64,000 nt of DNA, from contig UBQX01000011.1 of assembly GCA_900467685.1 (NCBI GenBank), positions 62,001 through 126,000 on the forward strand. The letters are read 5' to 3'. Below, one piece after another: positions 2,545 to 35,918 of the stretch. A program made the position numbers and the translations under genes. Source of the stretch: Hyphomicrobiales bacterium (lineage in GTDB: Bacteria > Pseudomonadota > Alphaproteobacteria > Rhizobiales > Rhizobiaceae). Within the stretch, counting starts at the first letter, position 1. Each line of letters starts with the position of its first letter. Under the pieces are notes generated by a model. It was not told the origin of the DNA, made no database searches, and worked only from the letters and a program-made list of their open reading frames with translations.

Positions 2545-2747
2545 GCTCCCTCCGAAGACAATTTTAACAAGAATTTTTTCATGAAAACATCTTTTGAGGG
2601 TATCCACAAGAGGAGACGCAGGTGCGCCCCGCAAATCCGATCCGCACTATCATCACGCTCTTGTCAAACTTGCCATTTAATCGATTGAGATCGCCGCCAG
2701 TTTCCGGCATGTATCGCCGCAACAATCGTTCGAAAGGGAGAGAGACC

Positions 2748-3974
2748 ATGTCCGCGACACTCGGAAAGAGCTGGCAGAAGAGGCAATTTCACCGCGACTG
2801 GCTGGCAGCAGAAGCCGTGAACCTTCTCGATTTCTTCAGCCTCAACGCCATCGACCCGGCCGGCGGCTTCTACGATCTCGACCGCGAGGGCGAGCCGATC
2901 GAAGGCCCCAAAGCGCTGCACGCCACAACCCGCATGGTTCATTGCCATGTCGTTGGCCACCTGCTCGGCCGCCCCGGTTCGGCAGAAATGATCGATCACG
3001 GCATGAACTTTCTGAAAAAGGGCCACCGCGACGAGAAGTTCGGCGGCTACCTGTGGTCGCTGGAAGACGGCCACCCGAAGGACGACACCAAGCAAGCCTA
3101 TGGTCACGCCTTCGTGCTTCTCGCCGCCTCCAGCGCCAAGCTTATCGGGCATCCGCTGGCGGACGAAATTCTGGCCGACGTCTCCGAAGTCCTCGACACG
3201 CGTTTCTGGGAAGAGGCAAACGGCGCGGTCTCGGAAGAATATCAGCGCGACTGGTCGGCAATTTCCGACTATCGCGGCCAGAATTCCAACATGCATCTGA
3301 CCGAAGCCCTCATGGCCGCTTATGAGGCGACGGGCGAGCGGCTTTACCTGACCCGCGCCGAGCGGATCGCCTCACTCATCATCGACAAGCATGCCCGTTC
3401 GCTCGGCTATCGCGTCGCTGAGCACTTCCACGCCGACTGGAGCCTCGACAATGCCTATTCCGGCAACGAGATGTTCCGCCCCTCGGGCTCGACGCCCGGC
3501 CACTGGCTGGAATGGGCGCGCCTGTGCCTCCAGCTCTGGGTGCTCGGCGGCAAGAAGCACGACTGGCTGAAGGACGCGGCCATTGCTCTCTTCAAGACCT
3601 CGATCGATCTCGGCTGGGACAAGGCCTATGGCGGCTTCTTCTACACGCTCGACTGGGACAACAATCCCAAGCGTCGCGAAAAGCTCTGGTGGCCGATCTC
3701 CGAAGGCATTGGCGCCGCCGCCTTCCTCAACGCCCATGCACCTTCCGATTTCCATGAGGAATGGTATCGCAAGCTCTGGGATTTCGCCGCCTCCAACCTG
3801 ATCGATCAGGATTTCGGCGGCTGGATGCCGGAACTGTCGGAAGAGCTCCAGCCGGAAGAAAACCTCTTCATTGGAAAGCCGGACATCTACCACGCTTTCC
3901 AGGCCTGCCTCATCCCGCTCTTCCCGGCCGAAGGCAGCCTGACAGCGATGATCATGGAAGAAAACAAGGCTTAA
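2748..3974 (+). CDS. AGE-family sugar epimerase/isomerase
   Basis: A 408-residue (alpha/alpha)6-barrel protein of the N-acylglucosamine 2-epimerase / mannose isomerase family. Conserved elements seen are an early CHVVGHLLGRPG segment, YRVAEHFHADWS, the TPGHWLEWARL motif (family HPGHxxEW) and WWPISEGIGAA (family WWxxxE), which carry the catalytic His residues and substrate-contacting acidic residues. The family interconverts aldoses and ketoses (mannose-fructose) or epimerises at C2; the substrate here is not resolved. The start at 2748 follows AAGGGAGAG. A long in-frame extension to 2622 was rejected because it overlaps the divergent promoter region. A terminator follows at about 4004-4036. 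Confidence 0.85.
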   Translation: MSATLGKSWQKRQFHRDWLAAEAVNLLDFFSLNAIDPAGGFYDLDREGEPIEGPKALHATTRMVHCHVVGHLLGRPGSAEMIDHGMNFLKKGHRDEKFGGYLWSLEDGHPKDDTKQAYGHAFVLLAASSAKLIGHPLADEILADVSEVLDTRFWEEANGAVSEEYQRDWSAISDYRGQNSNMHLTEALMAAYEATGERLYLTRAERIASLIIDKHARSLGYRVAEHFHADWSLDNAYSGNEMFRPSGSTPGHWLEWARLCLQLWVLGGKKHDWLKDAAIALFKTSIDLGWDKAYGGFFYTLDWDNNPKRREKLWWPISEGIGAAAFLNAHAPSDFHEEWYRKLWDFAASNLIDQDFGGWMPELSEELQPEENLFIGKPDIYHAFQACLIPLFPAEGSLTAMIMEENKA

Positions 3975-4003
3975 AACGGAACCAGAACCAGCGGTTAATC
4001 AGG

Positions 4004-4036
4004 CGCGGCGTCCGGAAACGGAGGCCGCGTTTTTTG
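4004..4036 (+). terminator. Intrinsic terminator after AGE isomerase
   Basis: GCGGC and GCCGC arms enclose an inner TCCG-gaaa-CGGA hairpin with a stable GAAA tetraloop, followed by a run of six T residues. It lies 30 bp past the stop codon of the isomerase gene. Confidence 0.8.
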
Positions 4037-4110
4037 TTGGGAGACGCGTGCCGCCGCGGACAGACGATCCTTGCAATCAGGGATCTAGGGGAAAAGACCT
4101 CCAGAATCGA

Positions 4111-4146
4111 AAAAGCCTGCCGCGGGAGGAGGTGCGGCAGGCTTTT
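4111..4146 (-). terminator. Terminator formed by the last CcsR-like hairpin
   Basis: A perfect 13-bp stem (4111-4123 with 4134-4146) carries the CCTCCTCCC loop. On the minus strand it ends in a T run (plus-strand AAAAA at 4110-4114). The last sRNA hairpin therefore seems to double as the rho-independent terminator of the DUF1127-sRNA transcript. Confidence 0.75.
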
Positions 4147-4265
4147 CGAAAAGAACCGAACAGCGACTGGGAGGAGGAGTGCCGCTGTTCCGACGGGGTC
4201 CCTGGGAGGAGGAGTAGGACCCGGTCACTCGAAGCTCTGCGGGAGGAGGTGCATCGCTTCGATGA
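4111..4265 (-). ncRNA. CcsR/cuckoo-like sRNA array: four hairpins with CCUCCUCCC loops
   Basis: Read on the minus strand, four consecutive stem-loops occur at 4228-4265, 4196-4222, 4158-4190 and 4111-4146. Each exposes CCTCCTCCC in the loop (plus-strand GGGAGGAGG at 4241-4249, 4204-4212, 4169-4177 and 4124-4132). The stems differ in sequence while the loops are identical, a pattern expected from selection on the loop. CCUCCUCCC is an anti-Shine-Dalgarno-like sequence. In Rhodobacter the stress-induced CcsR RNAs have this loop motif and are processed from the 3' UTR of a DUF1127 mRNA (ccaF). Here the array also lies directly downstream of a DUF1127 gene on the same strand. Whether this is four one-hairpin RNAs or two two-hairpin RNAs cannot be told by eye. 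Confidence 0.85.
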
Positions 4266-4377
4266 GTCTTATAATAGTGATTCCTGCTCCGCTTTGAAGC
4301 GATTTTGCTGCACTGCAGCTATGCATGAAATGCATATCGCAACTGCGAAGGAATTTTAGCGTATTTGGAACGAACAA

Positions 4378-4403
4378 GGCGCCGCTCCTTGGGAGACAGC
4401 GCC
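4378..4403 (-). other. Hairpin between DUF1127 stop codon and sRNA array
   Basis: GGCGC/GCGCC arms enclose an inner CTCC-ttg-GGAG stem. It lies ~30 nt downstream of the DUF1127 stop on the minus strand. Unlike the four following hairpins, its CTCC is base-paired and not exposed. It may be a processing or stabilising element between the coding part and the sRNAs. Confidence 0.5.
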
Positions 4404-4433
4404 TGGATCAAAGCCTTCGCGAGGCGAAATCAA

Positions 4434-4580
4434 TCAGCGAAGCGAACCGCCGCGGGCAACGCGCGGGATGTCGGCGCGGGTCAGGCCGAGGTCCTGCAGT
4501 TCGCGGTGGCTCATGCGGCCGAGTTCGTTAACGGTCTGACGATACTTGCGCCATTCATTGAAAGAGCGAGCGAGGTTCAT
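4434..4580 (-). CDS. DUF1127 small basic protein (CcaF-like)
   Basis: A 48-residue protein beginning MNLARSFNEWRKYRQTVNEL and continuing GRMSHRELQDLGLTRADIPRVARGGSLR. This is the compact DUF1127/YjiS-type domain (W-x3-R...L..L....L.DLGL.R.DI..V...). It is Arg-rich, short and without a membrane segment. In Rhodobacter the DUF1127 protein CcaF1 binds RNA and influences maturation of the CcsR sRNAs encoded in its own 3' UTR; that work concerns Rhodobacter, and transfer to this locus is inference. The ATG at 4580 has an AAAGGAAA ribosome site about 5 nt upstream. The gene is read toward the sRNA array. Confidence 0.9.
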   Translation of the reverse strand: MNLARSFNEWRKYRQTVNELGRMSHRELQDLGLTRADIPRVARGGSLR

Positions 4581-4651
4581 GGGTGTTTCCTTTCTGAGGT
4601 CTTGCTGACGTCAGCGGCTTAACTTCAAGTCCCGGCGTCTTTTCGATGACC

Positions 4652-4661
4652 CTCATATAGC
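4652..4661 (-). promoter_or_regulatory. Candidate -10 element for the DUF1127-sRNA transcript
   Basis: On the minus strand GCTATATGAG matches the rhizobial RpoH -10 consensus CYTATNTNNG except at its first base, and also looks like a CTATAT sigma-70 box. A matching CTTG -35 at normal spacing is not clear (only a T-rich TTTTTG). The start of transcription would leave a ~65-nt leader. A 7-bp inverted repeat (GTGCTGT/ACAGCAC, 4683-4702) lies just upstream. Heat or oxidative stress control would be expected by analogy with ccaF-ccsR but is not shown. Confidence 0.35.
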
Positions 4662-4789
4662 CCTCGCAAGCGCCTACAAAAAGTGCTGTTGCTGCACAGC
4701 ACCTATGCAGCCAGCGCAAATATGAGGCATTTCTCCTGTTGGAATGCACAGCCACAAGGCATCCGTTTTCGATCCGGCCTGAGGGGAAC

Positions 4790-4830
4790 GGAAAAAGGAA
4801 AGGGCGCACTCCCGGAAGGGGAGCACGCCC
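4790..4830 (-). terminator. Intrinsic terminator after phaR
   Basis: On the minus strand a GGGCG..CTCC/GGAG..CGCCC hairpin (4802-4830) is followed by TTTCCTTTTT. It sits ~50 bp downstream of the phaR stop codon and upstream of the DUF1127 promoter region. Confidence 0.75.
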
Positions 4831-4878
4831 AATATCAAAAACGCGGAAAAAACCTGCGCGAACCGCCAGCATCAGAAA

Positions 4879-5460
4879 TCAGAGACTGTCGAGCTTGGTC
4901 TGCAGCGCCTTCAGTTGCTGCTTCAGCTCTTCAAGATCGGAAGGCTCGGCCTTCTTGGCCGGCTTGACCTCCGGCTGTGCGACGCCGGAAAAGGGCGAGA
5001 ACATCTTCATCGCATTCTGGAAGATTTCCGTGTTGCGACGAACCTGCTCCTCGATCATCTGCATCGGGAGCTGGAGATTCTTTGTCAGAGGCGTCTCGCC
5101 GAAAGCCTTGGTGATCTGCTCCTGCATCTGCGCCTGCTGCTCGGCGAAGGATTGCATGGAATGTTCAAGGAAGCTCGGCACGACCATCTGCATCTGGTCG
5201 CCGTAGTAGGAAATAAGCTGGCGCAGGAATGAGATCGGCAGAAGCGTGTTGCCGGTCTTGGACTCCTGTTCGAAAATGATCTGCGTGAGGACCGAATGCG
5301 TGATGTCCTCGCCGGACTTGGCATCCTGAACCGCGAAATCCTCGCCGCGCTTGACCATGCCAGCCAGGTCGTCAAGCGTTACATAGGTGCTGGTGCCGGT
5401 ATTGTAGAGCCGCCGGTTGGCGTATTTCTTGATGACGATTTCACCGTCGTTCTTAGCCAT
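4879..5460 (-). CDS. phaR: Polyhydroxyalkanoate synthesis repressor PhaR
   Basis: A 193-residue protein with the PHB/PHA accumulation regulator DNA-binding domain at the N-terminus (IVIKKYANRRLYNT...STYVTLDDLA) followed by the PHB-binding repeat region (LRQLISYYGDQMQMVVPSFLEHSMQSF). The C-terminus (about residues 165-193) is a short Lys/Glu/Leu coiled coil. PhaR represses phasin and other PHA genes and is released when it binds nascent PHA granules; in Rhizobium etli the homologue AniA also affects carbon flux. It is encoded opposite to, and ~850 bp from, phaA-phaB, the genes for the first two steps of PHB synthesis. Confidence 0.93.
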   Translation of the reverse strand: MAKNDGEIVIKKYANRRLYNTGTSTYVTLDDLAGMVKRGEDFAVQDAKSGEDITHSVLTQIIFEQESKTGNTLLPISFLRQLISYYGDQMQMVVPSFLEHSMQSFAEQQAQMQEQITKAFGETPLTKNLQLPMQMIEEQVRRNTEIFQNAMKMFSPFSGVAQPEVKPAKKAEPSDLEELKQQLKALQTKLDSL

Positions 5461-19874: not shown

Positions 19875-19926
19875 CTGCGCCTCCTTGGTTTCGAATACAG
19901 GGGAAGAGGCGCTTGATCGCGAGCCG

Positions 19927-20018
19927 TCTAATCCCTCCGCCGGTGCTAACCGGATCAGGTTCTTCGGGTTGGCACTGAAGCCTCTCAGCCATTTCTGTCG
20001 AAACAGCACCCCGTTAGA
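19927..20018 (-). promoter_or_regulatory. TPP riboswitch (THI element) upstream of thiBPQ
   Basis: On the minus strand the conserved THI-box segments appear in order: GGGGTGC, then CTGAGA, then GAACCTGATCCGGTTAG and ACCGGCGGAGGGA. These are the TPP-binding core helices P2-P5. The element ends ~50 nt before the thiB ATG. By its class it shuts off thiamine import when TPP is plentiful; no clear terminator was seen before thiB, so control of translation initiation is the more likely mode. Confidence 0.93.
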
Positions 20019-20113
20019 GCAGGTTGACATTTAAGGGGTTGGGGGAATTGTGACAAGGTTTTTGTCAGGCTCACGCCTTCCGGCCAGCCCCATTTTCAGC
20101 TATCAGCCCAGCC

Positions 20114-24891: not shown

Positions 24892-24955
24892 GCGTGATGC
24901 CGCCTCTGATTTCGTGAATTGATTCCGAATTCGAAAGGAACTAGATACTACACGT

Positions 24956-25012
24956 CCCGTGGTGATTTGCCGGCCGGCTTGCAGCCACGTAAAAGAAGTC
25001 GCTAAAATGGGC
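24956..25012 (+). promoter_or_regulatory. SAM-II riboswitch upstream of metA
   Basis: The compact SAM-II (metA motif) pseudoknot is recognisable: CCCGTGGTGATTTG, a GCCGGCCGGC-type insert, TTGCAGCCACGTAAA, then GCTAAAATGGG. CGTGG pairs with CCACG as P1, and the last conserved segment forms the pseudoknot. It binds S-adenosylmethionine and lowers metA expression in alphaproteobacteria. A terminator follows directly (25034-25063), so transcription attenuation is possible. Confidence 0.88.
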
Positions 25013-25033
25013 CCAGATGACAGTTCTGTCTGG

Positions 25034-35843: not shown

Positions 35844-35918
35844 TGGAGCGGGCGAAGGGGTTCGAACCCTCGACCCCAACCTTGGCAAGGTTGTGCTCTA
35901 CCACTGAGCTACACCCGC
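35844..35918 (-). tRNA. tRNA-Gly (anticodon GCC)
   Basis: On the minus strand the sequence folds as a cloverleaf: acceptor GCGGGTG pairing with CGCCCGC, D-arm AGCTCAGTGGTAGAGC, anticodon stem CAACC-ttGCCaa-GGTTG, T-arm with GGTTCGAACCC. The discriminator is T and the CCA end is encoded (35844-35846). Gly-GCC reads GGC/GGT codons. No integrase or att duplication is seen beside it. Confidence 0.95.

Follow-up and report, generated by a model that had tools for sequence, protein, structure and literature searches.

A DUF1127 gene and a four-hairpin cuckoo-type RNA as probable neighbouring units of a LysR-type regulon in a Rhizobiaceae genome

The minus strand of the window (that is, the whole stretch of 64,000 nt that was analysed) carries, between positions 4107 and 4708, a short DUF1127 gene followed by an array of four hairpins. 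We propose, with a probability of roughly 0.73, that the two are neighbouring members of a single LysR-type regulon, each a unit of its own, and that the RNA silences mRNAs at their ribosome-binding sites. The upstream unit would be a short DUF1127 mRNA ending at the hairpin at 4403-4378, and the downstream unit a trans-acting small RNA of ~155 nt, with four hairpins, of the alpha-r14/cuckoo family. Both would have their own sigma-70-type promoter with a VtlR/LsrB (LysR-type) box in front, so that they would be switched on together. Structure, covariation, family membership, linkage with DUF1127 and the conservation and position of the boxes were computed directly. The features of the locus are as follows.

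4696-4708, minus strand: VtlR/LsrB-type box GCATAGGTGCTGT, an exact fit to the literature consensus, with its GCAT at -128 from the DUF1127 ATG
4655-4660, minus strand: CTATAT, read by eye as the probable -10 element of the DUF1127 promoter, with a weak -35 element (CTTTTT)
4434-4580, minus strand: DUF1127 gene, 48 aa (open reading frame and Pfam)
4378-4403, minus strand: fifth hairpin, probable (weak) DUF1127 terminator, GGCGC...GCGCC in the five of five genus members that have the locus
4312-4324, minus strand: second VtlR/LsrB-type box GCATAGCTGCAGT, an exact fit to the consensus, with its GCAT 62 nt ahead of hairpin 1
4271-4298, minus strand: sigma-70-like promoter TTCAAA-N16-TATTAT (promoter scan)
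4229-4262, minus strand: hairpin 1, loop CCUCCUCCC at 4241-4249
4191-4227, minus strand: hairpin 2, loop CCUCCUCCC at 4204-4212, inside the Rfam ar14 match at 4108-4232
4158-4190, minus strand: hairpin 3, loop CCUCCUCCC at 4169-4177, covered by the ar14 match
4107-4149, minus strand: hairpin 4, probable small-RNA terminator, loop CCUCCUCCC at 4124-4132, T-run at 4114-4110, covered by the ar14 match

The locus is flanked upstream by phaR (4879-5460), also on the minus strand, and downstream by a convergent GlcNAc 2-epimerase gene (2622-3974). The DUF1127 stop codon is separated from the array by a 171-nt gap that carries the fifth hairpin, then the second box and then the promoter-like site. 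According to Rfam, the window also holds a SAM_alpha riboswitch (24949-25026, plus strand), a TPP riboswitch (19915-20023, minus strand) and a tRNA (35847-35918, minus strand).

An initial annotation made from the sequence had described a 48-residue minus-strand DUF1127 gene followed by four hairpins with identical loops and differing stems, and the open reading frame, the Pfam match, the fold and the motif counts all agree with that description. The predicted fold of 4105-4265 contains four hairpins whose stems differ from one another and in which every CCUCCUCCC is unpaired; its free energy of -73.4 kcal/mol corresponds to a z-score of -7.4, and none of 200 shuffles was equally stable. Exactly four copies of CCTCCTCCC occur in the 64-kb window, all of them on the minus strand at 4124-4249 (within 126 nt), where chance predicts 0.61 per whole window and four or more copies appeared in one of 100 shuffles. 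Across the genome (5.05 Mb), the 9-mer gave 53 matches versus 64 for a reversed control and hence shows no enrichment, so that the signal resides in its clustering and hairpin context. The last hairpin, proposed to double as a terminator, ends in TTTTTCG and by eye looks like an intrinsic terminator; it is absent from the terminator-scan list because the scan takes loops of 3-8 only.

The stems were then compared among 18 four-hairpin arrays out of 26 extracted. The four-hairpin fold was recovered in all 18 with the motif in the loops, where 71 of the 72 motifs (8-nt core) were fully unpaired and the remaining one was unpaired at 7 of 8 positions; one loop motif, in locus L230, reads UUCCUCCC. 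Two-sided changes occurred in 20 of 45 stem pairs versus 9.6 in shuffles, none of 500 of which, ignoring relatedness as they do, gave a value as high, and slid controls brought the figure down to 4-12 pairs. A measure based on further pair types was weaker (50 versus 45.2 in shuffles, 16 of 500 as high). The least variable stem was that of the terminator hairpin, hairpin 4, in which 7 of 14 pairs never vary, and the most variable were those of the middle two hairpins, which have no invariant pairs. The initial annotation had staked its reading on loop conservation in relatives, and this conservation was found: the locus is present in five of the six genomes of the genus, with all four loops unchanged. 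In a comparison of the six genomes, the conserved blocks corresponded to the promoter islands, the gene and the hairpin array, with drifting spacers in between and diverging flanks.

A chance or low-complexity repeat, or else a coding frame (plus-strand ORF 3761-4297 or minus-strand ORF 4085-4228), might account for the array, given that such ORFs exist mechanically and that the 9-mer lacks genome-wide enrichment. However, we rejected a chance repeat on the grounds of the clustering, the fold z-score and the covariation, to which the Rfam score described below adds; coding is likewise contradicted by the covariation, and persistence in five of six genus genomes amid diverging flanks speaks against both. 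We regard this explanation as extremely improbable.

The covariance search that had been suggested for the locus placed the array in a known family. Rfam ar14 (RF02344) matched hairpins 2-4 over the full model (1-123) with 108.5 bits against a cut-off of 58.8. The array thus combines a score above the gathering cut-off with CCUCCUCCC unpaired in loops on variable stems, the model covering the last three of the four hairpins. Four ar14 matches, three of them above cut-off, are present in the same genome. RNAs of this kind, known as alpha-r14/NfeR1 or ‘cuckoo’ RNAs, have three or four anti-Shine-Dalgarno hairpins. The idea that four hairpins would be a new number was rejected, since four-hairpin RNAs have been in print since 2011 (PMC3927594, section 2.7). 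The term ‘CIN1 locus’ designates a short DUF1127 gene beside CcsR-like RNAs (PMC10253847), and the window, with a short DUF1127 gene adjacent to a cuckoo RNA, answers to that definition. The kind of RNA, its four-hairpin form and its link with DUF1127 are all already in print. In the literature searched we found no statement that both the DUF1127 gene and the cuckoo RNA have a VtlR/LsrB box of their own, a search that did not extend to the 2015 cuckoo and 2021 CcaF1 papers, and we make no claim of priority.

The array resembles alpha-r14/NfeR1 in its identical CCUCCUCCC anti-Shine-Dalgarno loops on variable stems, in the use of the last hairpin as terminator, in the LsrB/VtlR-type box upstream and in the presence of several copies per genome, but it has four hairpins instead of three and lies behind a DUF1127 gene next to phaR. 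It shares four hairpins, the loop motif and variable stems with the RFMSmelA099 RNAs of Rhizobiales, a likeness of features; section 2.7 of the paper describing them (PMC3927594) makes no mention of DUF1127 or of a regulator box. With AbcR1/AbcR2 (alpha-r15) the common traits are a box of this type ~61 nt upstream (in two of the four ar15 genes of this genome) and anti-Shine-Dalgarno targeting, whereas the RNA fold and family are different.

We examined how general the association between DUF1127 and these RNAs is within the family. Among 41 family genomes, ar14 was found in 40 and DUF1127 matches were found in 40. At least 63 of 140 ar14 matches, in at least 35 of the 40 ar14-bearing genomes, had a same-strand DUF1127 match no more than 1 kb upstream, where the rough chance of such linkage is ~0.0004 per RNA, and 32 of these at least 63 linked matches lie 28-42 nt behind the end of the DUF1127 domain match. 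When grouped, the ar14 matches of the 41 genomes formed 114 clusters: 39 tight behind DUF1127 (38 of them at most 100 nt from the DUF1127 stop codon, one assigned by domain match), four with a gap, which is the type of the window, and 71 without DUF1127. A second set comprised 69 named DUF1127 loci (L175-L244 minus L238, out of 74 returned, with L245-L248 left out). Many of these are close relatives, so that counts drawn from them are not independent events. Arrays of at least two hairpins were present in 14 of the 69, from Rhizobium (e.g. R. rhizogenes, R. miluonense and R. altiplani) and Agrobacterium, at 155-237 nt behind the gene in 13 and at 84 nt in one (L185). In 53 of the other 55 (e.g. 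in Shinella and Sinorhizobium) there was a box but no array of at least two within the 700 nt searched; among the 55, L184 runs into the contig end and L194, L199 and L242 show one loop.

The position beside phaR appears to be peculiar to the genus of the window, where the DUF1127-cuckoo insertion was found in five of six genomes. Outside the genus, 67 phaR loci (27 + 40), drawn from 131 non-genus genomes with a phaR match, were inspected, and in none of them did the downstream region show a DUF1127-like motif or more than one loop. Since the pair was seen next to phaR in this genus only, it seems to move between genera. Large tandem cuckoo arrays were also encountered, with 11 (L309, genome G023), 7 (L321, G027) and 9 (L361, G040) counted hairpins; in L321 and L361 the array comes immediately after DUF1127.

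Regulatory signals were evaluated using the published VtlR/LsrB consensus GCAT-N3-TG-N3-T (PMC7486931; PMC8844928), which is matched exactly at 4708-4696, inside an island conserved in five of six genus genomes, and again at 4324-4312. This literature pattern, untrained on our data, occurred upstream of DUF1127 at 66 of the 69 named loci, between -118 and -145 from the start codon, with 0.036 expected per locus. In 13 of the 14 array-bearing named loci a box was found in the gap, 58-62 nt before the first counted hairpin in 11 of them, at 70 nt in one and at 102 nt in one; the exception is L236, whose array has no exact gap box. At L185 the box ahead of DUF1127 is missing and the gap measures just 84 nt. 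When the 114 clusters were scanned at -75 to -50 from the array, the literature box was present in 0 of 39 tight, 3 of 4 gap-type and 13 of 71 DUF1127-free arrays (0.17, 0.02 and 0.3 expected), L269 being the gap-type array without a near box. Farther upstream (-300 to -240), it was present in 10 of the 39 tight arrays, with 0.39 expected. The exact near box is thus missing in 58 of 71 arrays without DUF1127, and the exact far box in 29 of 39 tight arrays. A trained matrix found an upstream box without a near box in 29 of the 39 tight arrays, and a near box in 18 of the 71 arrays without DUF1127, but this constitutes weaker evidence than the untrained literature pattern because the matrix was trained on named loci of like kind. 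Taken together, spacing and box position point to two architectures, either one box with a joint transcript or two boxes with two units, and as judged from its spacing and boxes the window is of the two-box, two-unit architecture.

The same genome offers an internal control: of its four ar15 (AbcR-type) genes above cut-off, the two best-scoring have a box 61 nt upstream and the other two have none, while in the literature the abcR1 site spans -61 to -49 and no site is present at S. meliloti abcR2 (PMC7486931; PMC8844928). A whole-genome pattern written from the window locus gave two perfect matches, both at this locus, which is partly so by construction, and 18 matches with one mismatch, of which one precedes an ar15 gene and another the second four-loop array of the genome, on contig C41. 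The promoter scan of 4000-4900 returned the sigma-70-like site at 4298-4271 as its sole promoter, with 0.2 expected, and did not list the CTATAT site ahead of DUF1127; the by-eye fits of the latter (-10 CTATAT, -35 CTTTTT) do not separate sigma-70 from RpoH. Precedents exist for the regulator. Promoters bound by VtlR include those of abcR1 and a DUF1127-type gene (PMC7486931), LsrB binds and activates NfeR1 (PMC10746234), and in Brucella VtlR activates three DUF1127 genes and AbcR2, while a fourth DUF1127 gene, which lacks the motif, rises in the mutant (PMC12595884). The activator of the DUF1127-RNA locus is likely to be a LysR-type regulator, with a heat-shock sigma factor as a possible alternative. 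A pattern search for lsrB beside the AbcR genes of this genome found no LysR-like frame at the five loci covered.

The initial annotation had interpreted the locus as a rhizobial counterpart of CcaF-CcsR; this is supported for the kind of locus, DUF1127 with cuckoo/CcsR-type RNAs being published, but not for a single unit. Under the latter reading, one transcript from the DUF1127 promoter would be cut by RNase E, with help from the DUF1127 protein, to release the hairpins from the 3′ UTR. The gene order is indeed identical, with Rhodobacter as precedent (PMC8625941; PMC10253847); 39 of the 114 clusters of the family are tight behind DUF1127 with a near box in none of the 39; and the window's fifth hairpin would be a weak terminator. 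However, the CcaF1-CcsR RNAs lie in the 3′ UTR without start signals of their own, whereas here the 171-nt gap contains a promoter-like site and a second conserved box, the latter spaced as in arrays without DUF1127, and relatives have terminators in the gap. Compared with CcaF1-CcsR1-4 of Rhodobacter sphaeroides, and CIN1 loci, the window likewise has a short DUF1127 gene with CcsR-like RNAs and a terminator behind it in the same orientation, and differs in encoding 48 aa instead of 71, in a gap that carries a box and a promoter-like site of its own, in having four single hairpins in one array and in a LysR-type box where an RpoH promoter has been demonstrated. Processing from a joint transcript is consequently considered unlikely.

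The fifth hairpin (4403-4378), which the initial annotation had noted next to the ORF as a variant of the hairpin set, is present, but it occupies the position of the DUF1127 terminator of relatives. We folded the gap in 8 of the 14 array loci and found a strong GC hairpin with a T-run after DUF1127 in six (L179, L195, L230, L231, L236 and L237), the other two being L175, with the genus-type hairpin, and the short gap of L185, without a hairpin. On this positional match the fifth hairpin was rejected as part of the small RNA, weak though it is in the window, and it is probably a weak DUF1127 terminator from which leakage is possible. Its T-run is poor, its 75-nt fold is unexceptional when taken alone (z = -1.56) and it is missing from the terminator-scan list, so that transcription may run on from DUF1127 into the RNA. 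Attenuation by a uORF, as modelled for S. meliloti duf1127-1, was also rejected, because that model deals with a leader of 279 nt that precedes a DUF1127 gene (PMC12218461); none of six cuckoo-related terms appears in the text of that paper.

As for function, transcription starts and ends, LysR binding and target silencing are the parts of the two-unit model that we infer. NfeR1, a three-loop RNA of this type, silences ntrB together with two transporter mRNAs. Its loops pair at the ntrB translation start and are redundant, and when they are mutated a target reporter is no longer regulated (PMC10746234). By analogy, each of the four single-stranded CCUCCUCCC loops would base-pair with Shine-Dalgarno regions in target mRNAs and thereby prevent translation, rigid covarying stems would hold the loops open and hairpin 4 would stop transcription; NfeR1-like silencing would be the most economical mechanism for the RNA of the window. 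The DUF1127 protein, assigned by its match to Pfam PF06568 (E = 1.7e-15), may aid maturation or turnover of the RNA, as CcaF1 does, or may work through other partners: CcaF1 binds RNA and helps CcsR maturation, and Agrobacterium and Salmonella DUF1127 proteins have been reported to act via protein partners (PMC12501420; PMC8625941). Titration of ribosome sites or of a protein had been put forward initially. Such a sponge, in which four identical loops would soak up ribosomes or some RNA-binding protein, perhaps the DUF1127 protein, without silencing chosen mRNAs, fits one motif repeated identically in open loops as well as the RNA binding of CcaF1 (PMC12501420). It is possible, but the tested mechanism of the sibling NfeR1 is direct mRNA pairing, with redundancy of the loops in base pairing and loss of reporter regulation upon loop mutation (PMC10746234), and we rank it slightly below processing from a joint transcript.

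Beyond the two-unit reading of the window, a broader proposal falls somewhat short of an even chance: that a single LysR-type regulator (VtlR/LsrB) drives the entire anti-Shine-Dalgarno programme, made up of cuckoo/alpha-r14, AbcR, DUF1127 and a second, unnamed DUF1127-like family, with the DUF1127-cuckoo pair existing in a one-promoter 3′-UTR form and in the two-promoter form of the window. In A. tumefaciens, a search with a 15-bp VtlR consensus gave only a single site (vrsA) in addition to abcR1 and atu1667, and many other promoters that were tested were not bound by VtlR (PMC7486931), which argues for a narrow regulon. If the proposal were true, the two-promoter form would uncouple the dose of RNA from that of protein under a common input. 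DUF1127 proteins and cuckoo RNAs are repeatedly seen side by side, and a common, position-fixed box would place both in an established regulon that serves nutrient uptake, redox and host interaction. Spacing and box position alone would then predict which arrays derive from 3′ UTRs and which have their own start.

The second family named above consists of Arg-rich small proteins of ~50-57 aa with the signature RERQVRRYVNGALL-LDD--LK-LG-(T/S)REELRR (L251, on contig C39 of the same genome, L280, L390/L435 and L397/L424). It had no Pfam match in two members from the genus and sub-cut-off matches or none in four others, and no NCBIfam match in two members. The family was matched in 100 of 151 family genomes, although the weakest matches may be cross-matches to DUF1127 (one overlaps a DUF1127 match). 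At 26 of 30 fetched loci (four had no frame), a matrix-scored VtlR-type box was found in 19, between -99 and -124 relative to the start, and a three-loop cuckoo array lay downstream in 4 of the 26. An hhalign alignment with DUF1127 that spans 31 columns (probability 84.5) suggests that the family is a distant look-alike of DUF1127.

Two further RNA loci of the same genome were recorded. At C13:52071-53159 (L001, L249), another ar14 RNA lies beside what by eye appear to be a tRNA-Leu gene and a trigger-factor-like frame, with two further DUF1127 genes downstream on the same strand. The second four-loop array, without DUF1127, is at C41:110386-110524 (L003, L252) and adjoins what, again by eye, appears to be a transporter binding-protein gene; the loop of its hairpin 2 has diverged, and a VtlR-type box is located at -61.
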